This document shows positions 3,057-47,489 of a stretch of 64,000 nt of DNA, piece after piece (position 1 is the first letter of the stretch; each line of letters starts with the position of its first letter). The translations under genes were made by a program, and so were the position numbers. Source of the stretch: Microcoleaceae cyanobacterium MO_207.B10 (GTDB lineage Bacteria; Cyanobacteriota; Cyanobacteriia; Cyanobacteriales; Microcoleaceae). The DNA lies in contig JASJEE010000001.1 of NCBI GenBank assembly GCA_030064835.1, positions 1 through 64,000 of the forward strand. The letters are read 5' to 3'. The notes under the pieces are model-generated. The model was not told the origin of the DNA and did no database searches. It saw nothing but the letters and a program-made list of their open reading frames with translations.

Positions 3057-3057
3057 T

Positions 3058-3190
3058 TATAGGAATCCGCGCAGAGGTTGCGGGGAATTAAAAAGTCAAT
3101 AAAAAAGTTGAAACTCCCACCTGTTCCCAGTTAAGTGTTCCCTAAAAAGCAGTAAGATTTTTGCCACGAATATGCGGAGGATTGCTATAT
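3058..3190. repeat. R10 element copy 1 (TATAG...CTATA)
   Basis: An inverted-end element, TATAGGAATCC at the left and GGATTGCTATA at the right, matching the copies at 19124 and 47352. The shared interior includes AAAAAGTTGAAACTCC and TTTTTGCCACGAATA. This copy has a GC-rich left arm (CGCGCAGAGGTTGCGGGG) that the others lack. Confidence 0.65.
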
Positions 3191-18906: not shown

Positions 18907-19123
18907 TATATAAAATCTGATTGAACAGTCGTCCGCAGCGACGAAGCGGAAGCAATCTCCTAAACTCCTGAGATTTCTTTCCTTACGGAATGCTGCGCAA
19001 ACCTTCCACTCCGTTCCAGTCGCTGCGGAATTAGGTATAGTAATTATCCGGATTTAATATAAATCCTAAATCCTGGCTTCTGGATTATGATTTTTTACGA
19101 ATACTAAAATGTTTCGACTTAAA
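18907..19123. other. Intergenic DNA with GC-rich hairpin repeat
   Basis: About 18930-19030 holds GTCGTCCGCAGCGACGAAGC and CCTTCCACTCCGTTCCAGTC. Its reverse complement recurs at about 26085-26180 (GACTGGAACGGAGTGGAAGG). The pair marks another dispersed repeat. No gene seen. Confidence 0.4.
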
Positions 19124-19253
19124 TATAGCAATCCGACCATAGGTTATGACAAATCAAAAAGTAAATAAAAAACTGAAACTCTTGCCTGTTCCCTGTTCCC
19201 TGTTCCCTAAAAGCCATTAAAATTTTGTACACGACTAAAATAGGATTGCTATA
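19124..19253. repeat. R10 element copy 2
   Basis: TATAGCAATCCGACCATAGG at the left and AATAGGATTGCTATA at the right. The interior ATTAAAATTTTGTACACGAC and a run of TGTTCCC heptamers match the copy at 47352. Confidence 0.7.
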
Positions 19254-23882: not shown

Positions 23883-25586
23883 TCAACTACCTATACTTTG
23901 AATTTTCGGAGGTTTAGATTTAATCTTAGTTGGTGACTTCCACAGGCGATCGCCCTGTATCAAAGTATGTAAATTCCAATCATTGGAAGTTTTTGGATAA
24001 TCACTCCGATAATGTCCGCCTCTACTTTCAGTGCGTGATCTAGCACTTTTGAGAATTAAATAACCCAAATCTAAAAGATTGAGTGTTTCTGCTGTTATCC
24101 GCAACTGCTGTTCTGCCTCAGTAGAATTTAATTCTATCATTTCATTAGGTAAGAGATTAGCTAAAAATTTAACTATATCTAAATTTGCTAAACTATCTCG
24201 CAAACTATTAACCTGATTTAATGCCAGATTTAACAACTCCCCTTGACGAGAAATTCCTGCACTTTCCCACATTAAATTTGGCAACATTTGTCGGACCGCC
24301 TCTATCTGTTCCATCTCATTACTCCAATTTGAGTTAAACTGTGAAATTTGAGAATCTGGTGCAACCAAATTTGGCTCAATTTCAATGCGAGATAGTTGAG
24401 CAGCAAATACTAAACATTCCAACAAAGAATTACTAGCCAAACGGTTGGCTCCATGAACCCCTGTACTAGCAGTTTCTCCAATAGCATAGAGTCCGCGAAT
24501 AGAAGTTTGACTCATTAAGTCGCAAGCAACTCCTCCCATCCAATAATGAGCAGCAGGAGAAACTGGGATAGGTTCTTGAAAAACATCAATACCCCATTGT
24601 TGACAGACATTGATAATATTGGGAAAACGATAGCGAATGCGTTCTGGTTCAATTGGACGCAAATCTAAATAGACGTGAGCATGGGTGGGATCGTCAGAAG
24701 TTTTGTGCAAGTGATGAAAAATAGCTCGACTGACAACATCTCTAGGAGCTAATTCTCCAGCAGGATGATAGTCAAAAGCAAAACGGTAGCCTGTTTCATC
24801 AACCAGATGCGCTCCCTCCCCTCGCACTGCTTCGCTAATCAAAAAATGAGGAGCGCCGGGTTTAGTCAAAGCAGTAGGATGAAATTGGAAAAATTCTAAG
24901 TCTCGTAAAATTGCCCCTGCACGCCACGCAATGGCAGTTCCATCTCCGGTAGTGACTGCTGGGTTAGTAGTTTGAGCAAATATTTGACCTCCTCCACCTG
25001 TGGCGAGAACAACTACAGAAGATTTTAACCACTGAATTTTGTTTTGATGGAGAAGACTAATTCCTTGAACGCGGTTTTTTTGAGGACTCAGCCATAAATT
25101 CAATGCTACTGCTTGGGAAATTACTTGAATATTTGGACGTTCCAGAACTTTTTCTGCGAGAGTATCAATAATAGCTCGACCTGTAGTATCTGCGGAATGA
25201 AGTACGCGGGGGTAAGAGTGAGCAGCTTCTAAAGTCATTGCCAGTTTTTCTCCTTTGCGGTCAAAGGCAACTCCCATTTCTACTAGATGGGCGATCGCTT
25301 CAGCAGCATTCTCCACCATAAATTTTACTGCTTCATAGTCACACAAACCCACACCAGCTTTCAGGGTATCTTCTAGGTGTAATAATGGATTATCTGATGG
25401 GTCAACAGCAGCAGCAATACCTCCCTGAGCATAGTTACTTGAACCCATGTTAATCACATTTTTAGTAATTAAGGCAATTCTCAGATGGGTAGCTAAACAA
25501 AGTGCAGCATAAAGTCCTGCTGCACCCGATCCCACTACTATAACATCAAAGTAGGGAGAAATATTTAGAGATGTTAATTTTTGCAT
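23883..25586 (-). CDS. nadB: NadB, L-aspartate oxidase
   Basis: Flavoenzyme that oxidises L-aspartate to iminoaspartate, the first step of de novo NAD synthesis. 567 residues from the ATG at 25586; a TTG three codons upstream is less likely. FAD-binding GSGAAGLYAAL at the N-terminus, then SSNYAQGGIAAA, HSADTTGRAI, the catalytic region PTALTKPGAPHFLISEAVRG EGAH, MGGVACD, GETASTGVHGANRLASNSLL, and a C-terminal helical domain ending with GHYRSDYP. Its partner nadA lies at 35140 on the same strand, about 9.5 kb away, rather than adjacent. Confidence 0.96.
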   Translation of the reverse strand: MQKLTSLNISPYFDVIVVGSGAAGLYAALCLATHLRIALITKNVINMGSSNYAQGGIAAAVDPSDNPLLHLEDTLKAGVGLCDYEAVKFMVENAAEAIAHLVEMGVAFDRKGEKLAMTLEAAHSYPRVLHSADTTGRAIIDTLAEKVLERPNIQVISQAVALNLWLSPQKNRVQGISLLHQNKIQWLKSSVVVLATGGGGQIFAQTTNPAVTTGDGTAIAWRAGAILRDLEFFQFHPTALTKPGAPHFLISEAVRGEGAHLVDETGYRFAFDYHPAGELAPRDVVSRAIFHHLHKTSDDPTHAHVYLDLRPIEPERIRYRFPNIINVCQQWGIDVFQEPIPVSPAAHYWMGGVACDLMSQTSIRGLYAIGETASTGVHGANRLASNSLLECLVFAAQLSRIEIEPNLVAPDSQISQFNSNWSNEMEQIEAVRQMLPNLMWESAGISRQGELLNLALNQVNSLRDSLANLDIVKFLANLLPNEMIELNSTEAEQQLRITAETLNLLDLGYLILKSARSRTESRGGHYRSDYPKTSNDWNLHTLIQGDRLWKSPTKIKSKPPKIQSIGS

Positions 25587-25892
25587 TCTGATCAACTTAT
25601 ATTTTTAAGATAGAACAAATCTGTGGTAAAATGCTTCTGAGCAAGTTTTTATGCTAGGCTGATTTCCCAGAATATTTATATCTAGCAAAATAATTTCCTA
25701 ACCTCCTGATTATGCTAGAATAGGAGGATAGAAAGGATTATTACTCATTGGTACAGATTAGAGAAATTATAATTGCTTTTTCAATATTCAGCTATTTTTT
25801 TCTTACTTTTTTTATATTTTTTTTGTTGTGAATAAAAAATTGTTGACCAGCAATTTAATTTTTGTCAGGAAGATCGAGAATTAAGATGTCAT

Positions 25893-26062
25893 TCATTAAT
25901 TGATAATTGATAATGGATAATTGATAATTACAAGAAGGTTAAAACCGTTACGGAATTGAATATCGGGAAATTCAAGAGCACTTTTTTTCCCCTATCCAAG
26001 GGGAGGCTTCAAGGCGCGAATTATGTAATTATTAATAATTAATAATTGGGTAATATAGAATC
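25893..26062 (-). repeat. R12 repeat
   Basis: Reverse-orientation copy: TAATTGATAATGGATAATTG, GGTTAAAACCGTTACGG, TTTTTTCCCCTATCCAAGG, GGGAGGCTTCAAGG, TAATTATTAATAATTAATAA. The blocks align with the copy at 13485. The 300 bp between it and nadB are AT-rich and presumably hold the nadB promoter. Confidence 0.55.
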
Positions 26063-26084
26063 CGCATAATTACTATAGCTAAGT

Positions 26085-26200
26085 CATTGCGACTGGAACG
26101 GAGTGGAAGGTTTCGCTGCGCGACATGAATGCGCAGCATTCCGTAAGGAAAGCAATCTCGTGAGACCTCTGAGATTGCTTCCTATCGTCCCAATGACAAG
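26085..26200. repeat. GC-rich dispersed repeat
   Basis: TTGCGACTGGAACGGAGTGG, TGCGCAGCATTCCGTAAGG and CTCTGAGATTGCTTCC are the reverse complement of the block at about 18930-19030. The open frame that crosses it has no protein-like features. Confidence 0.45.
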
Positions 26201-26215
26201 TTTTCAGCCGGATTC

Positions 26216-26328
26216 GGTAGTCCTGCATAGTAATGGTAAATAGGACAGTACGGGAGCAAGATGCTCCCACTACCTTGTCTCGTAACAAAAATAATTACAA
26301 TCCACTACCATTACTATGCACCACCACC
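26216..26328 (-). mobile_element. R6 element copy 2
   Basis: GGTAGTCCTGCATAGTAATGG at the left and CTACCATTACTATGCACCAC ending CACC at the right, the same ends as the copy at 5300 in reverse. No target duplication seen here. The interior differs, with GGGAGCAAGATGCTCCC forming a small hairpin. Confidence 0.65.
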
Positions 26329-26389
26329 AAATATTTATAATTTAGTCTCTTACAATAGAAAAATATCTCATATTATCTCTGATTAAATA

Positions 26390-26620
26390 ACTTTAACAAA
26401 CAATCTTTTCCCAATCTCGTAGGGACGTTGCATGCAACATCCCTACATCACGGTTAATTAATGTTATATCATGTCCGGTTGAACAGTGATAAATAAATAA
26501 CTGGGGAGGAGTCAGGAGTCAGGAGTCAGGAGTCAGAATAAAAGAAGAAAGAAGAAGAAAGTTTTTTTATCACTAATTATCCGGACATGATGTTACTTGA
26601 TATCACCAGCAAATACTAAA
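26390..26620. repeat. R13 palindromic repeat split by an R3 element
   Basis: R13 has the core CGTAGGGACGTTGCATGCAAC, then ATCCCTAC, followed by GGTTAATTAATGTTA and ACTTGATATC. The same sequence runs uninterrupted, in reverse, at about 47862-47946. Here an R3 element (26468-26591) sits between GTTAT and GTTAC, so R3 jumped into R13. Confidence 0.65.
26468..26591. mobile_element. R3 element copy 1 (124 bp, 5-bp duplication)
   Basis: ATCATGTCCGG at the left and CCGGACATGAT at the right are perfectly inverted. Flanked by GTTAT (26463-26467) and GTTAC (26592-26596), a 5-bp duplication with one change. The interior holds tandem GTCAGGA heptamers. Non-coding. Confidence 0.75.
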
Positions 26621-26653
26621 ATTTTTGCCTAAGAAGTTGTTTGAGAAGTAATT

Positions 26654-27000
26654 GATCGCCCTAAATCCCCCTTTTTAAGGGCAGGGCTGTTTCAAAGTCA
26701 AATAAATAATTGATATGAATGAGAATTGGGGGCACGATTACCGGAATTTGCGGAAAATTGAGGAAAAACTGGGGATTTTTAGGGGTGGAGGTAGGGAAAA
26801 GCTCCCAAAGAATCTTGGTCAAATCAACGGAATTTCTCAAAAATCCATGAGATCGCCAAAATTATTGAGCGATAAATTTGGGCGAAATCCAATGGTATTG
26901 GGTGGAAAATTCTCCTCTGCTCCCTGCTCCCCTGCTCCCCCTCTACCTTAACCAAGAATCAAACAGCCCTACCTTTTCAAGGGGGGTTAGGGGGGATATC
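26654..27000. repeat. R7 inverted repeat interrupted by an AGGGCTGTTT-ended insert
   Basis: The arms GATCGCCCTAAATCCCCC and GGGGGGTTAGGGGGGAT are those of an R7 repeat. Between them lies an insert of about 288 bp (26683-26970) with inverted ends AGGGCTGTTT. Its interior includes a 78-codon open frame (26715-26951) that is glycine-, lysine- and proline-rich without any recognisable motif; I do not treat it as a gene. Confidence 0.55.
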
Positions 27001-27068
27001 AATCAAAATTCATGCTTTTCCAAGATTCTCTAAATTACCGATAACTATCAAGAGGTAAATACAAAATC

Positions 27069-27869
27069 CTAAGCGCTGATCAACCCCATCTGACGCTCCC
27101 ATTTTTGTTTAATAGTCTGATAGTCGTTGTAATATTCTTCTGGATTAAATCCTGGCAAAATTTCATACACATCTATTTCTTGCCATAAAGGTTGTAAACT
27201 TTCAATAACTGGCATAGATTGAGCTACAATTTTTTCAGGTTTTAACCAATATTGTTTTTCTTCAACTGTTACATTAGGACGTAATTTATTTTCATTACCT
27301 GTATCTGTGGTACTAACATTAATAAAACGTCCCCGAATTAATCCTTTCCACTCTTCTGACTTGGCTAAATCTTTGATATATTGGCGTAAAGTATCTTTAG
27401 CATAGGTATAAGAACGCCAAAACGGAATTTTATATTTATCACTAATGGAACCAAAGCCACAAAGGGCGAGGGTTATTTTCTGCCCGCTCTGATGTTCTTT
27501 ATTAAGTTTTTCTACCAAGGGATTGACAACATTAACAAAAGTATGGTAATTTGATAAAAATACTTCATTATCTATTTTGTGCCGATCTTGGTTGAGGTGG
27601 GGCAAAGATTCTAAATCTTCATACTTGAATTTACCTACGCCATGTACCAGTATGAGATCGGAAATTCCACTAAGGTCTAATTTTTCAATAGCTTCTCTAG
27701 TTTTTTTTTCATCTAGGAGATCGACTTTAAATTGGATAACTTCGGTTGCTTCTAAATTGCTCCGGGAAAGAGCCACACATTTTGTATTTTCTTGTTTTAA
27801 AAAATGTTTGAGGTAGGAGCTTCCAACAGCACCACCTGCACCTGTGACAATTGCTAATCGAGTATTCAT
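27069..27869 (-). CDS. Short-chain dehydrogenase/reductase family protein
   Basis: A 266-residue SDR with Rossmann fold. The start is the ATG at 27869, with GAGG 11 bases upstream; the longer frame begins with TTG. The nucleotide-binding glycine motif is TGAGGAVGSSYL. The catalytic YxxxK is in SYTYAKDTLRQYIK, with Ser in FGSIS before it. A C-terminal extension (ILPGFNPEEYYNDYQTIKQK) goes past the usual SDR core. The substrate is not predictable. Same strand as the nicotinamidase-like gene upstream, but 350 bp separate them, so a separate unit is likely. Confidence 0.82.
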   Translation of the reverse strand: MNTRLAIVTGAGGAVGSSYLKHFLKQENTKCVALSRSNLEATEVIQFKVDLLDEKKTREAIEKLDLSGISDLILVHGVGKFKYEDLESLPHLNQDRHKIDNEVFLSNYHTFVNVVNPLVEKLNKEHQSGQKITLALCGFGSISDKYKIPFWRSYTYAKDTLRQYIKDLAKSEEWKGLIRGRFINVSTTDTGNENKLRPNVTVEEKQYWLKPEKIVAQSMPVIESLQPLWQEIDVYEILPGFNPEEYYNDYQTIKQKWERQMGLISA

Positions 27870-28217
27870 AAATTTTTTATCCTCTATTTTCAAAGTATGT
27901 TGCTATTTTGACCTTGATTTTCTCAACATAACTTTTAAAATTATTTATTTCCCTTGTCTTCAGAAAAGCAGGATTTGAGTTTAGGTCTAAAAATTCGTAA
28001 GCATTCAGCTATTAGCCCTCAGCTATTCCTGCGGAATGCTGCGCAAACAGCAAATCCTATCTAAACCTTAAAATAGCTTTAAAGTCAGCTTTGATAGATT
28101 AAGATTCAATTTACCTCAATAAAGCCAAGCTTTTATCTCAAACTAAAATAAATAGCTAACTGCTGAATGCTGACAAAATTTCATTATTATTAAATAGAAA
28201 ATCCTGCTTTTATAATG
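27870..28217. other. Intergenic DNA
   Basis: Contains AGCTATTCCTGCGGAATGCTGCGCAAACAGC (about 28021-28050, written here in two halves: AGCTATTCCTGCGGAATG then CTGCGCAAACAGC), a copy of the repeat at 14903. Otherwise AT-rich, with no gene seen. Confidence 0.35.
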
Positions 28218-28970
28218 TTAATTAGCCTCTAGATTAATGGTAGAAGCAATGAATGCACCACGCTCGGCCATTGTATATAACCCTACATGGTGAGATACTT
28301 TCTGTGGATGGATAGCAGTTTTGGGTAAACCTTGTTCCGCTGCCATTTCTGCTGTCAGATCAAAAGTAGCACAACCTTTATCATATACAGCAACATCTTT
28401 TAAAGTAGGTACTAAACCATGATTGCGCACTGACAGAATAGTAACAACGAAGTCCATCACACAGATATCAGTACAAATTCCTACTACAACTAAGCTCTCC
28501 AGCTTATTATCATTAATCCAGTTCAACAATACATTACTTTGAGTATCAAGGTCAATGGAACCGATAAATCCATTGATGCAGTCTTTGGGAACCAATGTTG
28601 CTAAGGAATTATCGTGTAACCATTTAAGTTCAGGAACAAGTTCTTCTTCTCCAGTACCCTTTTCACAATGAGGAGGATAAGGGGGTTCAGGTTTTCCTGG
28701 TTCGTGGGTATCTAGGAAAGCTAAAACTGGCCAACCTTTTTCGACAAAAGTTCGAGCTAGGCGATCGCTTTCTGAGACCATTGTGGCAATTTGTTCGTCG
28801 GGTTCTTGGGGTGCTAATGGGCCAAAGCCAACTGTACAAAAACCATTAAGTACATCTACTACAACTAATCCGGTAGGGCGATCGGCTACAACATAAGGTT
28901 GTGGATCGATGGGTAAAGCAGCTTGAATAGTTGCTAAGGAAGTATCGGGAGTAGCTAGAGTTGTTGTCAT
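28218..28970 (-). CDS. Nicotinamidase-like cysteine hydrolase (isochorismatase family)
   Basis: A 250-residue protein, likely hydrolysing nicotinamide to nicotinate in NAD salvage. The catalytic triad can be read: Asp39 (VVVDVLNGFC), Lys129 (LVPKDC) and Cys170 (CTDICVMDF). The metal site of true nicotinamidases is also visible: Asp87 and His89 (LDTHEPG) and His101 (YPPHCEKGT). This separates it from isochorismatases, which lack the metal site. Start ATG at 28970. The first 17 codons are repeated as a 50-bp copy at 31121-31170. nadA, nadB and a NADAR gene lie within about 10 kb, giving a loose NAD-metabolism neighbourhood. Confidence 0.85.
   Translation of the reverse strand: MTTTLATPDTSLATIQAALPIDPQPYVVADRPTGLVVVDVLNGFCTVGFGPLAPQEPDEQIATMVSESDRLARTFVEKGWPVLAFLDTHEPGKPEPPYPPHCEKGTGEEELVPELKWLHDNSLATLVPKDCINGFIGSIDLDTQSNVLLNWINDNKLESLVVVGICTDICVMDFVVTILSVRNHGLVPTLKDVAVYDKGCATFDLTAEMAAEQGLPKTAIHPQKVSHHVGLYTMAERGAFIASTINLEAN
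28921..28970. repeat. 50-bp direct repeat, left copy
   Basis: Identical to 31121-31170 except one base (28929 A versus 31129 G). It covers exactly the first 17 codons of the nicotinamidase-like gene. The two copies are in direct orientation exactly 2,200 bp apart and bracket the nucleotidyltransferase/XisI/XisH block. Confidence 0.85.
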
Positions 28971-29142
28971 TACAATTTACTGAACGAGAGAACTGTATAA
29001 ATAATTTTAGCTAAAACTGTATAAATAATTTTAGCTAAATTTTATTGATGATTTATTTTACCCTAAAATATAGCTAGATAAGCTAGATTTAGTTTTTACA
29101 GAAGACTTGCTTTCAAACCCAGTCTCAATACTTAAGAAAATA

Positions 29143-29979
29143 TTAAGCTAAAGTAGTTTCATCCACAGCTTTTTCTAATTCTGGAGTTAGTTTGAGGCGA
29201 TCGCTCCACAACCTCAAATAGTCAAAATCTAATATTTTGCGTCTGGCTTTAATTACACCCAAAATATCGCGCCATTGTTTTTGAGAGTAATTATCTGCAA
29301 TTTTGTACAATCTTAATTTATGTAAAATAATATTTTCAGGAGAAGTAATATAAATAGATTTATTCCCCGAAAAAAGTTTAACTTGTTTTCGGCGAGACAT
29401 AGCCGATAACTCAAAATCATTAGACTGTTTAATAGGATAAATATCTGCTTTAATAGCTGATGCTGTATGAATGACATTAAAGCTATTAGTCCGACCTCTC
29501 AGAGCATCATCTATAGCAGTATCACTCAGATAAAATTCTGTTGATAACGCTGTTATTAATTGTTCTACTTTATCTGGTTCTAAAATAATTGCAATGTCAG
29601 CATCTTCTGTTTGTCTCCGTTCTCCCCAAAACGAACTAGCCAGACCACTACTTAAGTAGTAAGGAATGTTTAAATTATCTAATATTTCACCAAGATTCAG
29701 GGCTAAATCAATTTCAGAAGCCATCATAAAATCTGTGTTAATAAGTTTATTTATTGAGCAATATTGCTCTCCTAGTTTGAATTTTATATACTCTAATTTC
29801 AGTTGTTTATTTGTTAGATTATCATGTTGTTGTTTAAATAAATTCCACCAAATTTCTTGAGATTGAATGGATGCCCTGTGATATTGCATTATTCTGGTTT
29901 CTATTGGTATTTTACCTATGAGGTCGAACCATATTTTTTCAGCTTCTATGGTTGTATCTGTTGCTTGAGTTTTATACAT
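29143..29979 (-). CDS. Nucleotidyltransferase-fold protein
   Basis: A 278-residue protein. Residues about 90-230 look like a minimal nucleotidyltransferase domain of the kind seen in AbiEii/DUF6036 proteins: LNIPYYLSSGLASSFWGERR, then the acidic motif TEDADIAIIL and a third acidic residue in KADIYPI, followed by ENIILHKLRLYK. The N-terminal 75 residues are helical and of unknown origin. Such proteins are often parts of toxin-antitoxin or defence loci. No cognate partner of known type is adjacent, except the small DUF104-like protein 58 bp upstream. Function uncertain. Confidence 0.7.
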   Translation of the reverse strand: MYKTQATDTTIEAEKIWFDLIGKIPIETRIMQYHRASIQSQEIWWNLFKQQHDNLTNKQLKLEYIKFKLGEQYCSINKLINTDFMMASEIDLALNLGEILDNLNIPYYLSSGLASSFWGERRQTEDADIAIILEPDKVEQLITALSTEFYLSDTAIDDALRGRTNSFNVIHTASAIKADIYPIKQSNDFELSAMSRRKQVKLFSGNKSIYITSPENIILHKLRLYKIADNYSQKQWRDILGVIKARRKILDFDYLRLWSDRLKLTPELEKAVDETTLA

Positions 29980-30036
29980 TATTACTAATCTACTGGCTAA
30001 TTTTATTCTAGGAATATAGCCTAATTTTTGATTATT

Positions 30037-30273
30037 TTAATTGCGTTTAGGAGTGCGATATAAATAATGATCATGATGTATTGACCAATCTTCGGGTGCT
30101 TCAAAAGTATCTGCTAAACTCTCCAAAATATCCCAAGCATTTTCTTTTGGAGGAGCGGGTAATTGTTCCTCAGAAATAATCTGGATTCGATAACGTTTAT
30201 TTGGTTTTAAATTCAAAGCTGAATCTGGATGCAATCCTCTCCCATCAAAGGTTACTGTTACAGTTTTATTCAT
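30037..30273 (-). CDS. Small DUF104-like antitoxin-type protein
   Basis: 78 residues from the ATG at 30273, preceded by AGGAG. It begins MNKTVTVTFDGRGLHPDSAL and has a beta-rich start with NLKPNKRYRIQII, then a helical AWDILESLADTFEAPEDW and the closing HDHYLYRTPKRN. This resembles the AF2212/DUF104 group of putative antitoxins, which in cyanobacteria often precede PIN-type toxins. No PIN gene is present here: the neighbours are a nucleotidyltransferase and XisI. It lies 16 bp after the xisI stop on the same strand, so the three are likely co-transcribed. Confidence 0.7.
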   Translation of the reverse strand: MNKTVTVTFDGRGLHPDSALNLKPNKRYRIQIISEEQLPAPPKENAWDILESLADTFEAPEDWSIHHDHYLYRTPKRN

Positions 30274-30289
30274 GTATACTCCTGTTTGA

Positions 30290-30625
30290 TTAACATAAAG
30301 CAAAATCGGTATACTTTCTCAGATATGGTGCATGATAGGCTAAAACAATATCTTGTGGAGATACACCACGTTCAACTAATACATTGGCAATGCCAATTTC
30401 TGTACCATCATTTTGAATCCAAATCTTGTCATTTTTCAAGTCAATATGAATAGTTGAACCATAAATACGGCGATGTTTATTCCATCCTGTATGAACAAGT
30501 TGATAACGGTCTCTTTCTGTATCAAAAATTAATTCCACTTCTACTTCACCATAAGCAGGTTTGTGGCTGCTATATTCGGTGAGAATTTCTTTGACAAGAT
30601 GCCGATATTCGTCTAGTTTTGCCAT
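30290..30625 (-). CDS. xisI: XisI, element excision controlling factor family
   Basis: A 111-residue XisI-family protein, starting ATG at 30625. Features: MAKLDEYRHLVKEILTEYSS, VELIFDTERDRYQLVHTGW, RIYGSTIHIDLKNDKIWIQ, DGTEIGIANVLVERGVSPQD and YHAPYLRKYTDFA. XisI was named for its role in excision of the fdxN element in heterocyst-forming cyanobacteria, but homologues are widespread in strains without that element, and a broader role is unproven. Its start overlaps the end of xisH by 13 bases, so the two are translationally coupled. Confidence 0.93.
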   Translation of the reverse strand: MAKLDEYRHLVKEILTEYSSHKPAYGEVEVELIFDTERDRYQLVHTGWNKHRRIYGSTIHIDLKNDKIWIQNDGTEIGIANVLVERGVSPQDIVLAYHAPYLRKYTDFALC

Positions 30626-31029
30626 TGGATAATTTCCTCATTAACTGGATCGAATACAATCAATTTTAATTGATATTCTTGGGTAATAAGTTGGACAAAA
30701 CGACGGGCAAAGAAAGTATCATAAATTTCAACAGGAATAGCCAGGTATAGTATTCGCCCTGGCTCTTCTGCGTGAAGAGCAAAGCGATAATTCAGGAATT
30801 GTCCTAAAACTGTATGAAATTCAGAAACAGCCGAAGGCTTGAGAAATGTTTTAATTTCAACCGCTATTCTTTCTCCATCCTTTTCTGCTGCTAAAAGTCT
30901 TTCTGCTCCCAAGTCAATGTAAATTTCAACTTCAGCAAAATTAATGTAGAGAGGGTCATGGGTGATGCGCCAGCCCTCTTTCTCTAAAGCAGATTTTACT
31001 TGATTATGAAAGGTATCCTTTGCTGACAC
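30613..31029 (-). CDS. xisH: XisH, element excision controlling factor family
   Basis: A 138-residue protein of the restriction-endonuclease-like fold, starting GTG at 31029. Motifs: AKDTFHNQVKSALEKEGWRI, ITHDPLYI, the acidic/Lys core VEIYIDLGAERLLAAEKDGE, RIAVEIKTFLKPSAVSEFH (ExK) and LGQFLNYRFAL. The D...ExK arrangement fits a PD-(D/E)xK nuclease-like site, so nuclease activity is possible (inference from fold). Paired with xisI. The pair sits inside a 2.2-kb block bracketed by 50-bp direct repeats. Confidence 0.92.
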   Translation of the reverse strand: MSAKDTFHNQVKSALEKEGWRITHDPLYINFAEVEIYIDLGAERLLAAEKDGERIAVEIKTFLKPSAVSEFHTVLGQFLNYRFALHAEEPGRILYLAIPVEIYDTFFARRFVQLITQEYQLKLIVFDPVNEEIIQWQN

Positions 31030-31120
31030 GATTTGCCTCTACCTTGATTTTTTTACCTGATGTACCTACCTTGACTAGATACCTGAACATTTTAGTGGAG
31101 GTAGGCAAAAGGGAACAGGA

Positions 31121-31170
31121 GCTTGAATGGTTGCTAAGGAAGTATCGGGAGTAGCTAGAGTTGTTGTCAT
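31121..31170. repeat. 50-bp direct repeat, right copy
   Basis: Copy of the first 17 codons of the nicotinamidase-like gene (28921-28970), including its start codon (CAT at 31168-31170 on the plus strand), but with no gene attached. Similar AATTTA follows both copies. The sequence between this copy and the xisH start (31030-31120) shows no other feature. Confidence 0.85.
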
Positions 31171-31251
31171 AATTTATCTTAACCCTTGTTTGTTCAAGAT
31201 ATTTTCTGCTCAAATTGTATCAGTTTTTGATAAAGCAGAAATAATTTTTTG

Positions 31252-31962
31252 TTAGTAGTCAATTATTAAATCATAGCGTCCTTGGTCATAAACTTGATGT
31301 AAAATACTTTGTAAATCTAGAGTAATTTCTGAATCTTCTGGAAGTAGAGGCAAAGTAAAAACAGGAATCACATCTTGAATGTTAAAAGTATAGAGATATG
31401 CTTGAGGACGTTGATTATTAGGACTGACTAAAATACAATAATCATGCTCTATATTTTGATTTAAGGTAATCATTGAATTACCTTGACGTAGCAAATCTAT
31501 TTCTACAAAATTTGTACAGCTACTTAAAATATGCTGACGTTTTTTTTCGTATTTTATTCGACCTTCTCCTGCATTTTTATTGATAGGGGAAAGAATTTCA
31601 ATTGCCGTAATAACTTCTCCCGTGCCAACTCTCCTAACTTCTAGATATCCTTGTTTAATTATTTCTGTCAGAGCAAGTTCTATGGTTAAAGGTTGAGTAG
31701 AAGGGAATGCAACAGCTACATTAGACTCAGGAGATTTGATGGAAGTTTCAGAATTTTTAGCAATGATATTATCAGGAATACCAATAAGTGTAGATTTTTC
31801 TCCACTGGTTTCATAGATTTGCACTTCCACCGCAACTACATATTTAGGGGCTAACTGTTGATTTAATAAGCGAGCAATTTCCGTAATTAGCCAATGATGT
31901 ATACTTGACCAATAGGCTGAATCTTCTAAATAGGGATTCATTCCAGGGAAGGGTGAGAGCAT
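31252..31962 (-). CDS. DUF4058-family protein
   Basis: 236 residues from the ATG at 31962. The family signature is the N-terminus MLSPFPGMNPYLEDSAYWSS then IHHWLITEIARLLNQQLAP, followed by TAIEILSPINKNAGEGRIKY and KKRQHILSSCTNFVEIDLLR. The TAIEILSP...EIDLLR core has the beta strand with E...ExD-type acidic residues found in PD-(D/E)xK-like folds, but DUF4058 has no demonstrated activity known to me. DUF4058 genes are numerous in filamentous cyanobacteria. The upstream region (31969-32040) is made of TAATTAATAAT repeats. Confidence 0.85.
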   Translation of the reverse strand: MLSPFPGMNPYLEDSAYWSSIHHWLITEIARLLNQQLAPKYVVAVEVQIYETSGEKSTLIGIPDNIIAKNSETSIKSPESNVAVAFPSTQPLTIELALTEIIKQGYLEVRRVGTGEVITAIEILSPINKNAGEGRIKYEKKRQHILSSCTNFVEIDLLRQGNSMITLNQNIEHDYCILVSPNNQRPQAYLYTFNIQDVIPVFTLPLLPEDSEITLDLQSILHQVYDQGRYDLIIDY

Positions 31963-32050
31963 TTTCAATAATTAATAATTAATAATTAATAATTAATTAT
32001 TATAGCAATCCTATTAACTGTTGTCTTTTCATCACAAATCTCGTTCACCA

Positions 32051-32742
32051 TTAACAAACACCAAAAGTAATACCTAAGTCCTTCAACCAACGACGATAGG
32101 CAATAGAAGCGCGATCGCACTGAGCATGGACTTCTGGGAGCCAGTCGCTATTTGTTTCACTTTGGGATAGCAAAGGCAAACAAACCGGACGTTGGGATTC
32201 TATTATTTCAGCATCTTCAGCCCAAAGTCGATCCTGAAATGCTTGGAAATCTGACTCCGAAGCTCCATCGCTATAATTCATGGCAGCCAGTCCCCATATC
32301 AAACTTTCGTTTTCCTCAATGGGGGTTACTGTAAATAGAAGACTGTATTTTCCCTGCACTGACTCTTTGACTTGATAGAGAGTCAAAGGACGACATATTT
32401 TTTGCGACCACTCGATCTTACCATCAGTACCGGAGCCATCAAAATTTGGTTGCCAGAGGGAAATTTTTCCAATAGTGATACCTTCTACATTTACTTTTAC
32501 TTCATAGTCTTCGATTTCTGGGTGTTCTGGTGAACCGAGACTTCCTTGATGGGCAAAAGAAAAATGAGACACATCAAATGCATTCTCAATTACACGAAAT
32601 CCACTAGAATGGCAGTGATACGGACCGAAAACAAACTTACGGTAGCTTAAATCATTCCATTCTGGAAATGAAGGCACATCTTGCGAAGGTTCCCCCAAGC
32701 ATACCCACACGAAGCCATAGCATTCTTGACATTGGTAAGTTT
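32051..32742 (-). pseudogene. Rieske oxygenase lacking its Rieske domain
   Basis: Encodes the catalytic half of a Rieske-type ring-hydroxylating oxygenase. YQCQECYGFVWVCLGEP leads into the iron-site region (VIENAFDVSHFSFAHQGSLG, with the N/D...H...H pattern), then a beta-rich domain and a closing RASIAYRRWLKDLG. The N-terminal CxH...CxxH cluster domain is absent. Upstream of YQCQ the frame runs straight into the last codons of the truncated quinone-oxidoreductase gene, separated only by its TAA stop. The first ATG would be at about 32710 (219 residues). A deletion probably removed the Rieske domain and the rest of the neighbouring gene. Confidence 0.75.
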
Positions 32743-33237
32743 TTATTCGTGCATTTTTTGGTGGGTGTTGCTCAGGGTTAGCTGGTAAATATTAGTAGCA
32801 GGAACTACTACATATTCAGCAAAACCCCCATCCAATTCACTGCCAATATATTGATAGTCGTCTAGAGTTTCATCACGAATCCAACTATCAACTATAACTC
32901 TTTTTTGGAGAAGTTTTGAATCTACATTTTCCCCAATTTCTATTACTTTGCCAACAATATCAGCACCTTGTATTCGCGGAAACTCTGTACCATTTTGTGT
33001 CCAACAAGATGTATTATTGGGGTTGTTTTCTTTTGTATCTTGGAGAATAGCTTGAAAATTATCCTCCGCAGCATACCAACCAGTCCGAGTATTAATATCT
33101 GTATTATTTACCGAACAAGCTCCCACTTTAATCAATACTTCTCCCGGTTTTGGAGTTGGTTTAGGAACTTGAGTATAGACCAGTTTTTCTGGTCCTCCAA
33201 AACCCGTGAGAATAACCGCATTCATTAAATCAGTCAT
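32743..33237 (-). pseudogene. Quinone oxidoreductase/zinc-type alcohol dehydrogenase, C-terminally truncated
   Basis: 164 codons. MNAVILTGFGGPEKLVYTQV and KPGEVLIKVGACSVNNTDIN, then FPRIQGADIVGKVIEIGENV, belong to the N-terminal catalytic domain of MDR-family quinone oxidoreductases, normally about 320-340 residues. It stops after NIYQLTLSNTHQKMHE, before the Rossmann domain with its GxGxxG. The following bases belong to a Rieske oxygenase, so the break is a deletion junction near 32745. The start is either ATG at 33237 or ATG at 33225. Confidence 0.75.
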
Positions 33238-33611
33238 TTCAGTTATCAGTTATCAGTTATCAGCATTACCTCTATGAATAATTAATAATTAATAATTAAT
33301 AATTAAACTAGACAGTACAAAGTTCTTAGAATAACTATTGCTAACTAAGGCTTTCAGCTATCTCAAACTTAGAAACTATCTATTGATAATGTAGTTGCTG
33401 TCAGCCTGCTACAGTAATATTTTCAGTCTTGAAAGCAAATCGTTTTTTAGCAGAAATTTGTATTCTCCAGCAATTAAAGAATCCTTGCATTATTAATTGT
33501 TCATTATTAATTATTTACTGCTCCCCTGCTCCCCACAAGTTTTTCAGGAGTTCTTTATAAGGGATAGCTTTTAAGGGGAGATTTTTAACCTGAATTATTA
33601 ATTATTAATTA
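33235..33611. repeat. Heptamer leader and R12-like repeat
   Basis: 33239-33265 holds tandem CAGTTAT heptamers directly upstream of a start codon. The same arrangement occurs upstream of the methyltransferase start at 34885. 33270-33310 is TAATTAATAAT sequence. From about 33478 to 33611 lies an R12-like block (TTATTAATTGTTCATTATTAA, CTTTTAAGGGGAG, TTATTAATTATTAATTATT) that runs up to the stop of the NADAR gene. No gene. Confidence 0.45.
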
Positions 33612-34052
33612 TTAATTATTCTGTAACCTATTTCTTACTTTCATCAATATTTCTCCCAAACGATTTTTCCCACTCCCATCTTTACCACATCCCCAATAAT
33701 AATCTTGAGGTGCATTTTCCACTATCAATTTATCTCCCGTACTCAGAAGAATTTCGCCAATATCTTTATGAGTTTGAAACTTACAAAGTAAACCTCGCTC
33801 CATCACATCCTCCTTAATTTCCTCCCAGTCTTTGCGGAGGGGACGACTACGCTCTCGCCCCATTTTAGCAGCATCTGCCGGAGTTTTAGCCAATCTAATT
33901 TCTTCCAGATGCTCAGTCCCCACAAATTTTTGGCCTTGGAAATAATGCTCTGAAGTTGGCCACCAGAGTCCATCAAGTTCAAAACCGTGGGGGGAAAAGT
34001 TGGAAAAACAACCATAAGGTTGTTCTGTTTCATCAAAAAAGTAAATAGTCAT
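33612..34052 (-). CDS. NADAR-family protein
   Basis: 146 residues from the ATG at 34052. Motifs of the NADAR (YbiA/RibX-like) family: YGCFSNFSPHGFELDGLWWP, TSEHYFQGQKF, AAKMGRERSRPLRKDWEEIK, and the C-terminal DYYWGCGKDGSGKNRLGEIL. Family members hydrolyse N-glycosidic bonds in riboflavin-pathway intermediates or ADP-ribose conjugates. Its ATG overlaps the stop of the upstream methyltransferase gene (TAATG), so the two are translationally coupled. The longer upstream frame lies inside the methyltransferase gene and is not used. Confidence 0.9.
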   Translation of the reverse strand: MTIYFFDETEQPYGCFSNFSPHGFELDGLWWPTSEHYFQGQKFVGTEHLEEIRLAKTPADAAKMGRERSRPLRKDWEEIKEDVMERGLLCKFQTHKDIGEILLSTGDKLIVENAPQDYYWGCGKDGSGKNRLGEILMKVRNRLQNN

Positions 34053-34885
34053 TAATTGTTCTCCAACAAACGGAAGTGTAAAATTCCCCACTGCATATAT
34101 CCTTGTTCGTAACGTTCTATCCAAGGTTGAATGCTATTTAAAGTTTTATCGGCAAATTCTGTAGAAGTCAATTTTACTACTTCATCGTAACGCTTTTGTA
34201 CTTCTTCCCCAAAACGTCGATAATGGATGGGCACATTTTGAGAAAGGTCAATAAAATGTAGTTCCTCAAAACCTAACTCTCTTGCTGTTTGACTGTAAAA
34301 GTGGTATGACCCCATGTCACTAATTCCCAAACGTTCAAAAGCAGGTTGTAATGCTCCTGGAGGACAAGTTTCGCTTTGCATGGGGTCAGTAAAAATTAAT
34401 TCGCCTCCCGGTTTTAATATTCTTTTAATTTCCTGGAAAACTAGACGGCGATCGCCACTATGTAAAATAGCATCTTGAGACCAAACAATATCAAAGGAGT
34501 TGTCTGGATAGGGAATATCCTCGAAACTCCCTTGAATTACTTCTACCAAGTGGCTTAAGTTTTGTTCTTGGTTAAGTTGGCTATTGCGTTGATTTTGCAA
34601 TTCGCTTAAATTGAGACAACATACTGAACAGCCATAAGTTTTAGCTAAATACCGAGCTGCTCCTCCATATCCTGCTCCCAGGTCAATGACTCGCGAATTT
34701 TTGTCTATTTTTTCCAGAGTTTGGGCGATGGTTTCTACTGTCCGCAGGGAAGCTTCGTGGATAGGTTCGTCTTGTTGGGTATAGATTCCGTAACAAATAT
34801 GTTCCCCTCCCCAGATAGTGGAATACATTCTGTCGGTCTCAGTCCCATCATAATATTGTTGGGCAACTTTTACTGCTTCTGTCAT
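34052..34885 (-). CDS. SAM-dependent methyltransferase, sarcosine/dimethylglycine (betaine-forming) type
   Basis: A 277-residue class I methyltransferase. The N-terminus QQYYDGTETDRMYSTIWGGE and HICYGIYTQQDEPIHEASLR is typical of the sarcosine/dimethylglycine N-methyltransferase group that makes glycine betaine. SAM motif I is VIDLGAGYGGAARYLA; then DIPYPDNSFDIVWSQDAILH and LKPGGELIFTDPMQS. In Trichodesmium a related enzyme has been reported to make homoserine betaine, so the substrate could be another amino acid (inference). Start ATG at 34885, just after tandem CTGATAA-type heptamers. No glycine-sarcosine methyltransferase lies beside it, so it would need another gene for the first methylations. 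Confidence 0.82.
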   Translation of the reverse strand: MTEAVKVAQQYYDGTETDRMYSTIWGGEHICYGIYTQQDEPIHEASLRTVETIAQTLEKIDKNSRVIDLGAGYGGAARYLAKTYGCSVCCLNLSELQNQRNSQLNQEQNLSHLVEVIQGSFEDIPYPDNSFDIVWSQDAILHSGDRRLVFQEIKRILKPGGELIFTDPMQSETCPPGALQPAFERLGISDMGSYHFYSQTARELGFEELHFIDLSQNVPIHYRRFGEEVQKRYDEVVKLTSTEFADKTLNSIQPWIERYEQGYMQWGILHFRLLENN

Positions 34886-35139
34886 TTCAGTTATCAGTTA
34901 TTACTTATCAGTTATTAGTTATCAGTATTTCTCACCTATTTATGGGAGGAAATACTGAATTTTCTTTTTCTTCTCCTGCTTTTAAAGAGGAGACTTAAGA
35001 CTTTATATTTTAAGTCATTGGTGTTGGTCAATCAAGGTATGAAAATAAAAATTGAACAATCCCAAATATTTGTTTTTCAATAGTGAGCGCAATTACCAAA
35101 ACATACAAATCATACCCTAATTTACCAACGCCTAGTCAT

Positions 35140-36132
35140 TTATTGTTTCTCTGCTTTTGCCGAATTAAATGAAAGTTCTAACATTTTTTGAATTGGTTTC
35201 AACGCTGCCACTCTTGTCTCTTCAGGAATGGTAATTTCTGGTGTCTTGTTTTTCATCGCTAGATAAAGTTTTTCTAAAGTATTCAACCTCATGTGAGGAC
35301 ATTCATTACAAGCACAATTATTCATTGCTGGTGCAGGAATAAAGTTTTTGTTGCTAGCTTTCTTTTCCATTTGATGAATAATTCCCGGTTCGGTTGCCAC
35401 AATAAATGTTTGATTTTGGCTTTCCTGACAATATTTTAATAAAGCAGTGGTGGAACCGACATAATTTGCATGACGCAACACACTCGGTTCGCATTCTGGA
35501 TGAGCAATCATCTCAGCTTCGGGATGTTCTATTTTTAATTGCACGATCTTTTTCTCAGAGAATGTCTCGTGAACAATACAACTGCCTTCCCACAGAATTA
35601 AATCTCGTCCAGTTTGCTCCATGACATAACGACCCAGGTTTCGGTCTGGAGCAAAAATTATCGGTTGGTCTGCTGGTATTTGTTTAACTATTTTGACTGA
35701 GTTGGAACTGGTGCAGATAATATCGCTCATTGCCTTGATAGCAGCAGTGCAATTAATATAAGAAATTACTATTGCATCGGGATGAGCAGCTTTAAATTTG
35801 CCAAATTCTTCTGGTGGACAACTATCGGCGAGAGAGCAACCTGCATCTAAATCTGGTAGCAGTACCAGTTTATTTGGGTTAAGAATTTTTGCAGTTTCTG
35901 CCATAAAATGAACTCCTGCAAAAACTATTACATCTGCATCAGTTTCAGCAGCTTGTTGGGAAAGACCTAGAGAATCGCCAATATAGTCGGCAATGTCTTG
36001 AATATCCGGTTCTTGATAATAGTGAGCCAGAATGACAGCATTTAGTTCTTGCTTGAGGTCGGCGATCGCTTCAAACAAGTTGTTAGGTATCTGATTAAGA
36101 GTTTGGTTGGTTTTGAGTTGAGTTGCAAACAT
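35140..36132 (-). CDS. nadA: NadA, quinolinate synthase
   Basis: [4Fe-4S] enzyme that condenses iminoaspartate with dihydroxyacetone phosphate to quinolinate in NAD synthesis. 330 residues from the ATG at 36132 ([12 protein letters not shown]), which fits the family N-terminus; the frame extends 27 codons further but that part is not family-like. Motifs: [49 protein letters not shown], a cluster Cys in [20 protein letters not shown] and the C-terminal [15 protein letters not shown]. Works with NadB (23883). Confidence 0.96.
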
Positions 36133-36165
36133 TATTAATTTTTTCTGTAATTTATCTATTAACGG

Positions 36166-36183
36166 GCGGTCAGTTTTGACCGC
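36166..36183. promoter_or_regulatory. Hairpin in the nadA leader
   Basis: GCGGTCA-GTTT-TGACCGC, a perfect 7-bp stem with a 4-base loop, 34 bases upstream of the nadA start. Wider pairing (AACGGGC / CTACGGTT) lengthens the stem imperfectly. It could be regulatory or merely a dispersed repeat. Confidence 0.4.
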
Positions 36184-36304
36184 TACGGTTAATTTAATTA
36201 TAGTAAAATTCACAAAAATTATGTAGGCAACTGTTTGGTCTCTATAGACCCCAAATGGGTTCTATTTTTAAATAGACGGTGTGATGGCGAGATGGGTTCA
36301 GCAA

Positions 36305-37225: not shown

Positions 37226-37534
37226 TACCAATTTTCAGGCGTTGCACGATTAGGAATGATGAAATCAGAAAGTAGATATTTTTAGATAATTCTTTCCTCA
37301 ATATATGGAGAGTTGAAAATCTATTATCATTCTTTAATGTGCAACCCCAATTTTCAAAAAGAATGTGATGCTTGAGCCAACTTCAACTATTAACTAATTA
37401 ATCAAGTTTTTCGACTTTATCCCTTTTCTAACCAGCCTTTTTCTTTGTTTTTCCTATGATTTCACCACACCCAAAACCCGACACCCAAAACCCAAGATTA
37501 ATAATATTTGTAGCAAACATTTATCAATTTGGTA
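37226..37534 (-). mobile_element. R1 element copy 4, with R2 nested inside
   Basis: TACC at 37226 and GGTA at 37531-37534 with TTA on both sides (37223-37225 and 37535-37537). An R2 element and its 8-bp duplication occupy 37238-37356. Without them the R1 copy is 190 bp, the normal size. It separates the SDR pseudogene from its probable start. Confidence 0.85.
37238..37348. mobile_element. R2 element copy 2 (111 bp, 8-bp target duplication)
   Basis: GGCGTTGCACGATTAGGAATG at the left; inverted right end GGGGTTGCACATTAAAGAATG. AATTTTCA is present on both sides (37230-37237 and 37349-37356), and the joined sequence restores an R1 end. Confidence 0.85.
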
Positions 37535-37570
37535 TTAGTCAATCATTATTTCTATAATTCTGCTTTTTTT

Positions 37571-41469: not shown

Positions 41470-42065
41470 CAACAAAATCAGGTTTCCCACATATACAAGC
41501 TCGAAATAAATTTGCTCATCAATTACTACGTTTAAAAAGTAAAATTCAGTATTTGCAGCGTCTGAAACGAAAATTAAAGAAGTTAAAAAAGACAGAACGT
41601 TTACAGGTTTGTTTTGGTTCAAAGAAATTATTTAACGCTCAACATAATTTAGCAGAAAACGGATATCAAACCAGACAGGAATGGGTTGTTGATTGGAGTA
41701 AGAAACGGCAGGTTTTTATGTGTGGGAAAATCTCAGCCTGGTGGTGGAACTATGATGAAAGTTTTCTTGTTATACCAATTAAAAAAAAAGAATGTTATGC
41801 TTGCTCAAACTTGAACTATTAACTAATTAATAAAGTTTTTCCACTTTATCCCTTTGATCACCAGCCTTTTTCTTTGTTTTTCCTCTGATTTCACCACACC
41901 CTACACCCCACACCCAAAACCCAAGATTGATAATATTTGTAGCAAACATTTATCAATTTGGTATTACAAGAGGATGGATTATATCAACTACAAGTTAAAC
42001 TACCTAGACCATTACAGGATAAATATGGTCAGAAAATACAGTTAAAATTTTCTGTTGATGACCAG
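41470..42065 (+). pseudogene. TnpB-like (IS605 OrfB) remnant, interrupted by R1
   Basis: The frame ATKSGFPHIQARNKFAHQLL, KSKIQYLQRLKRKLKKLKKT, VCFGSKKLFNAQHNLAENGY, QEWVVDWSKKRQVFMCGK is characteristic of a cyanobacterial TnpB-like family. A 1-base frameshift follows near 41725 (continuing as SQPGGGTMMKVFLL). R1 is inserted at 41773-41963, and QEDGLYQLQVKLPRPLQDKY continues on the far side. Removing R1 with one TTA makes the join in frame. The N-terminus and the whole RuvC nuclease half are missing, so it is dead. Confidence 0.75.
41773..41963 (-). mobile_element. R1 element copy 5 (191 bp)
   Basis: TACCAATTAAAAAAAAAGAATG...CAATTTGGTA with TTA on both sides (41770-41772 and 41964-41966). Inserted in the TnpB-like remnant. 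Confidence 0.85.
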
Positions 42066-47182: not shown

Positions 47183-47351
47183 TCGTAAACTACACTCATT
47201 CGTTTGTTTAAGAAAACGGGGAATGGGAACAGGAAATAAAAAGATAAAAGATAACTGTACCTCACAAGCTTGAGAAATTATATAACTAGAATACACCCAA
47301 AACTAACTTTATTACTTCACTTACAACTAAAAAATATTAAAGTTGTTAATA
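47183..47351. other. Intergenic DNA with partial R9
   Basis: CATTCGTTTGTTTAAG (47199-47214) and TGTACCTCACAAGCTTGAG (about 47258-47276) are the right half of an R9-like element, close in sequence to 39070-39118. No gene. Confidence 0.35.
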
Positions 47352-47489
47352 TATAGCAATTCGCCCATAGGTTATGACAAATTAAAAAGTAAATAAAAAA
47401 GTTGAAACTCCCACCTGTTCCCTTTTTCCTCTTCCCTCTTCCAGAAAAAGCAGTAAGATTTTTGCCACGAATAAAATAGGATTGCTATA
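47352..47489. repeat. R10 element copy 3
   Basis: TATAGCAATTCGCCCATAGG at the left, AAAATAGGATTGCTATA at the right, interior TTATGACAAATTAAAAAGT as in the copy at 19124. Confidence 0.7.

Follow-up and report, generated by a model that had tools for sequence, protein, structure and literature searches.

A repeated nicotinamidase-like gene start bracketing a xisH/xisI cassette in Microcoleaceae cyanobacterium MO_207.B10: a probable scar of rearrangement

The window analyzed here, a stretch of 64,000 nucleotides at the beginning of contig JASJEE010000001.1, carries the start of a nicotinamidase-like gene (hereafter nic) twice, and the two 50-bp copies bracket a small set of genes that includes xisH and xisI along with others that resemble toxin-antitoxin genes. 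The source organism is a marine filamentous cyanobacterium. We propose that these repeats are probably a scar left at the nic 5' end by a rearrangement that was not site-specific, as opposed to the ends of a programmed element. Read along the minus strand, the locus runs through a DUF4058 gene, a 50-bp relic of the nic start (nic'), XisH, XisI, a DUF104-like protein, a nucleotidyltransferase-like protein (NTase), the nic leader, nic itself and an SDR gene. Its components are as follows.

28218–28970, minus strand: nic, nicotinamidase-like gene of the isochorismatase family (PF00857, E=4.2e-20), intact at 250 aa; its first 50 bp form one copy of the repeat
28971–29050, minus strand: U2, the nic leader; nic has a similar leader in Okeania hirsuta and Okeania SIO2C9
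29143–29979, minus strand: nucleotidyltransferase-like protein (NTase), 278 aa; no Pfam match, weak PDB match (E=0.21)
30037–30303, minus strand: DUF104-like small protein, 88 aa; no Pfam match
30290–30625, minus strand: XisI, 111 aa (PF08869, E=2e-44)
30613–31029, minus strand: XisH, 138 aa (PF08814, E=6.7e-57; relatives of PDB 2okf and 2inb)
31030–31120, minus strand: 5' flank of XisH (CTCCTGTTCCCTTTTGCC...), also present in Okeania SIO2F4, there joined to a nic fragment of greater length
31121–31170, minus strand: nic', a relic copy of the nic start (50 bp)
31171–31968, minus strand: the gene past the far repeat, identified by its profile match as DUF4058 (ORF 31252–31968; PF13267, E=4.7e-92), with its 3' flank; joined directly to nic in Okeania

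The initial annotation had listed a nucleotidyltransferase, a DUF104-like protein, XisI and XisH between the repeats. The profile matches bear out this order and the identity of XisH and XisI, while the other two labels derive from the appearance of the sequences: neither protein matches Pfam even at E≤1, and the weak PDB match of the NTase is to a nucleotidyltransferase-like protein. Searches with PADLOC and NCBIfam did not help to assign the cassette genes. XisH is regarded as nuclease-like. In Okeania SIO2F4, a homolog of the DUF104-like protein is followed by an ORF that looks PIN-like by eye, without Pfam support, and the 88-aa protein of the present locus is possibly an orphan antitoxin. 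We considered the cassette as a unit mobile element and rejected this reading, as its parts occur apart: homologs of the NTase occur alone, without nic, in Okeania and others; XisHI adjoins nic without the NTase in Moorena; and Hydrocoleum has the NTase without XisHI.

The surroundings of the locus constitute an NAD/quinolinate-type neighborhood (23883–36213) that includes nadA (35140–36213), a methyltransferase (34052–34885), a NADAR protein (33612–34124), nic, the SDR gene and nadB (23883–25595). The versions of this neighborhood in Trichodesmium and Okeania add a TauD-family dioxygenase and a complete Zn-alcohol dehydrogenase of 361 aa; in the window the latter is truncated to 164 aa (32743–33237) and lies beside a short fragment of a Rieske-type oxygenase (32051–32710). 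The upstream side of the nic locus is eroded too. Elsewhere in the window, a MITE-like dispersed repeat is present at 3057–3188, 19123–19253 and 47351–47489, with the ends TATAGCAATCC / GGATTGCTATA and inner CTGTTCCC runs, and a 182-bp direct repeat (37356–37537 and 41785–41966; 92% identical, 4.4 kb apart) has a part that recurs near 66 kb of the contig.

The repeat that drew attention to the locus proved to be as first described: 28921–28970 and 31121–31170 form a direct 50-bp repeat, spaced by exactly 2,200 bp and with a single mismatch (A at 28929, G at 31129). A repeat search extended it to 60 bp at 93% identity (28911–28970 and 31111–31170), with the similarity fading across the outer 10 bases. 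Searched against all 6.2 Mb of the genome, the 60-mer matches these two places only (E=1.1e-19 for the second), and hence the repeat is not due to chance. One of its edges is exactly the start codon of nic (ATG), because the two copies of nic have different DNA upstream, namely the DUF4058 tail in one case and the U2 leader in the other. The other edge falls at codon 17, where AAGCT stands against TTCTCCTG, with few bases in common. Such duplication of gene starts is uncommon in this genome: in 604 kb of it, which contain 346 ORFs of 120 aa or more, just two of these, nic and one other, have their starts repeated nearby, the remaining matches being internal tandem repeats. The other case is an ORF of 141 aa whose first 42 bp recur 316 bp upstream at 95% identity (L215:137-178 and 453-). 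Further, nic' is identical at 49/50 positions to the nic of this genome and that of Hydrocoleum, as against 45–46/50 for other relatives, and its bases CCCGATACTTCC are common only to the former two. This implies that the copy arose, or was last homogenized by gene conversion, recently. A search of viral contigs for the 23-bp nic start, bearing on carriage by viruses, found no match.

The relatives furnish natural counterparts of the uninterrupted site. It had been predicted that recombination between the repeats would join nic to the DNA beyond 31171, and that relatives might have nic directly beside that DNA. The latter is borne out: DUF4058 runs straight into nic in three Okeania genomes (SIO2F4, SIO1I7 and SIO2B3), and two Trichodesmium genomes have a shorter remnant of the end of DUF4058 joined to nic in this way. 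The product expected from recombination matches the natural empty site across the junction except for a gap of 1 bp. An observation named beforehand as speaking against the idea, DNA from beyond 31171 never lying upstream of nic, is contradicted by the Okeania genomes. In the nic tree, this genome groups with Hydrocoleum CS-953 (support 100/99) and the pair is placed beside Trichodesmium (88/99, not fully firm), with Okeania outside. Taken with the empty sites, the tree suggests that the uninterrupted DUF4058–nic junction is probably ancestral and the interruption derived.

Hydrocoleum, whose nic shares 98% amino acid identity with that of this genome over the full length, presents a partial version of the locus. 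Its DUF4058 tail extends to exactly the equivalent of 31171 and is followed by ~80 unrelated bases, the very end of the DUF104-like gene, the NTase, the leader and nic, with no nic' and no XisHI. The leader also has a 24-bp tandem duplication found in U2 (28991–29038), which is single in Okeania SIO2C9 and O. hirsuta. Compared with nic', XisHI and the DUF104-like gene, the ~80 bp gave no convincing match, and none was found elsewhere in the 62 genomes of the family. Hydrocoleum probably once had the cassette and has since lost the greater part, although the DUF104-like tail that it retains is short.

Relics of the nic start are not confined to the present locus. Upstream of its DUF4058–nic, Okeania SIO2F4 has a diverged nic 5' fragment of ~225 bp, which matches the nic of that genome at 84% identity over 225 bp and is joined to the XisH flank seen here. 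Beyond this flank come the end of the DUF104-like gene and the PIN-like ORF; xisI is wholly deleted there, as is the greater part of xisH. Thus, the nic-to-XisH joint is present in a second genome, with a different length of nic. In Moorena, a decayed nic leader and codons 4–31 of nic (82 bp) lie upstream of a XisHI array, and one Moorena genome has a nic relic just before a second xisH; these relics are 84–91% identical. In Okeania SIO2C9, nic and its leader are followed by an 11-kb metabolic cluster, and then by a second leader with the first 20 bp of nic beside a decayed NTase; an 81-bp imperfect repeat of the nic start and leader bounds the cluster, and no XisHI lies between. The cluster itself (L068:7213-18090) encodes, by eye, a dioxygenase, aldolases, an MmgE/PrpD-like protein and a member of the enolase superfamily. 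The nic portion of the repeats therefore differs by genome (20, 50, 82 and ~225 bp), and the cargo differs by species. Judged from these sequence comparisons, the nic start is a recurrent joint of rearrangement. As the repeat lengths and cargo vary and the nic start alone is shared, we see in this the mark of general recombination or end-joining, as opposed to a fixed attachment site.

The scenario that we favor is as follows. In the ancestor of this genome and Hydrocoleum, DUF4058 would have been joined directly to nic, as in present-day Okeania. XisH–XisI, the DUF104-like gene and the NTase, along with a different nic leader, would then have been placed between DUF4058 and nic by one of two equivalent routes: recombination that used nic as its anchor at one end and made a joint of the end-joining type at codon 17 at the other, or tandem duplication of the local DNA followed by losses. 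In either case, nic' would be what remains of the old gene start. Collapse to the DUF4058–nic state might still occur through general recombination (RecA or slippage) between the repeats. We infer the order of these events, the recombination route and any excision. In favor of a scar are the empty sites, the recent nic', the relics that vary in length and cargo among relatives, the joint of few bases, and the absence of a recombinase ORF between the repeats in both the ORF list and the Pfam searches. Likewise, the locus has no transposase ORF and the 50-bp duplication is confined to the gene start, whereas a transposon or insertion sequence would present a transposase and a short duplication of its target. 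Certain observations count against it. The donor arrangement XisHI–DUF104–NTase–leader–nic was not found intact elsewhere; the loss of nic' in Hydrocoleum stops exactly at 31171 and leaves the ~80 bases unexplained; random joints do not in themselves explain the recurrence of relics at one gene start; and the adjacency of XisHI to nic in Moorena too allows the opposite order of events, with loss in the relatives.

In that opposite order, nic'–XisHI–nic would be ancestral, the DUF4058–nic of Okeania and Trichodesmium would stem from repeated deletions between nic' and nic, and gene conversion would account for how nearly identical the two copies are here. The distribution of the XisHI lineage lends this some weight: its Moorena orthologs (83–85% amino acid identity) lie ~60 bp upstream of nic, with a nic' upstream of XisHI as well, and a genome of another genus (G103; L266:5017-5756) has XisHI of this lineage flanked by nadA and nadB. 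Moreover, the amino acid identity within the lineage (84–85%) is like that of the neighboring nadA (82%), as vertical descent predicts. Nevertheless, several independent deletions and gene conversion over 50 bp would be required, and the relics of Moorena and SIO2F4 do not have the 98% identity seen here; we consider this history unlikely, though deserving of attention. The same relics could be read as homing-like insertion of XisHI cassettes into the nic 5' end as a recurrent target, with duplication of the gene start, since nic' is found beside XisHI in Moorena (with two different XisHI pairs), in Okeania SIO2F4 and in this genome. That the break positions in nic vary, that the SIO2C9 repeats enclose no XisHI and that other XisHI loci have no target repeats makes such homing very improbable. 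We give least credence to an assembly artefact, i.e., a misjoin through the 50-bp repeat: the source assembly is indeed a draft of 465 contigs with 83% completeness, but Hydrocoleum independently has the DUF4058 tail, the DUF104-like end, the NTase, the leader and nic in that order, and SIO2F4 independently joins a fragment of nic to this XisH flank.

There remains the notion of XisH and XisI as excision-controlling factors, which the initial annotation had entertained. In its full form, the locus would be an active fdxN-like element, with a recombinase acting in trans to excise 28971–31120 and rejoin DUF4058 to nic. XisH and XisI do both lie between direct repeats, the recombination product matches the natural empty sites, and the genome encodes one large serine recombinase (PF07508) on another contig. 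However, the cassette itself has no recombinase, and nic is uninterrupted, so that excision restores nothing. XisH is present in all 62 of the family genomes in up to 44 copies, with 15 in MO_207.B10, and direct repeats flank none of the 11 other XisH loci that we read from this genome. The variation of relic lengths among genomes is also adverse, as is the state of the fdxN core, TATTC, which is present in nic but reads CATTC in nic'. Accordingly, we rejected a XisHI excision system as the main reading and regard an active element of this kind as exceedingly doubtful, more so than homing and less so than misassembly. Of the two origins suggested at the outset, an integrated cassette or the outcome of a duplication, the latter fits as well as the former, and an excision role of XisHI is not supported.

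On the favored reading, XisHI are passengers with a long association with the NAD-gene cluster (nadA, nadB and nic) across genera; our literature search found no paper linking XisHI with nic or NAD genes. XisH and XisI are named for fdxN excision, yet have many copies in non-heterocystous cyanobacteria. The portions of PMC4874684 and PMC2674450 that deal with these genes describe xisH and xisI as needed, with xisF, for fdxN excision in Nostoc 7120, and give no known function for the non-heterocystous copies. The present locus cautions against taking xisHI between repeats as an excisable element. The part deserving a survey is the presence of nic-start relics beside XisHI in three genera; if these proved to be mechanistically tied to XisHI, they would be a first clue to XisHI as a mobile pair.

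Set against known systems, the locus resembles the fdxN element of Nostoc/Anabaena PCC 7120 (xisF, xisH, xisI) in having XisH and XisI between direct repeats whose recombination joins the flanks, but that element has its own recombinase, XisF, and an interrupted gene, whereas here there is no recombinase and nic is of full length. In Lyngbya majuscula CCAP 1446/4, likewise a filamentous cyanobacterium without heterocysts, xisHI stand upstream of hoxW, a metabolic gene unrelated to them (PMC2674450); in contrast to the present case, the part of that paper describing them reports no repeat of the gene start. Partial tandem gene duplication with a 5' relic similarly leaves a truncated gene start upstream in the same orientation, but here other genes lie between the copies and the leaders differ. 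Finally, homology-facilitated illegitimate recombination (e.g., PMC3240628), though known from experiments and here deduced solely from the final structure, combines one homologous anchor with one non-homologous joint and would produce a duplication of arbitrary length, with which the repeated start of nic is compatible.
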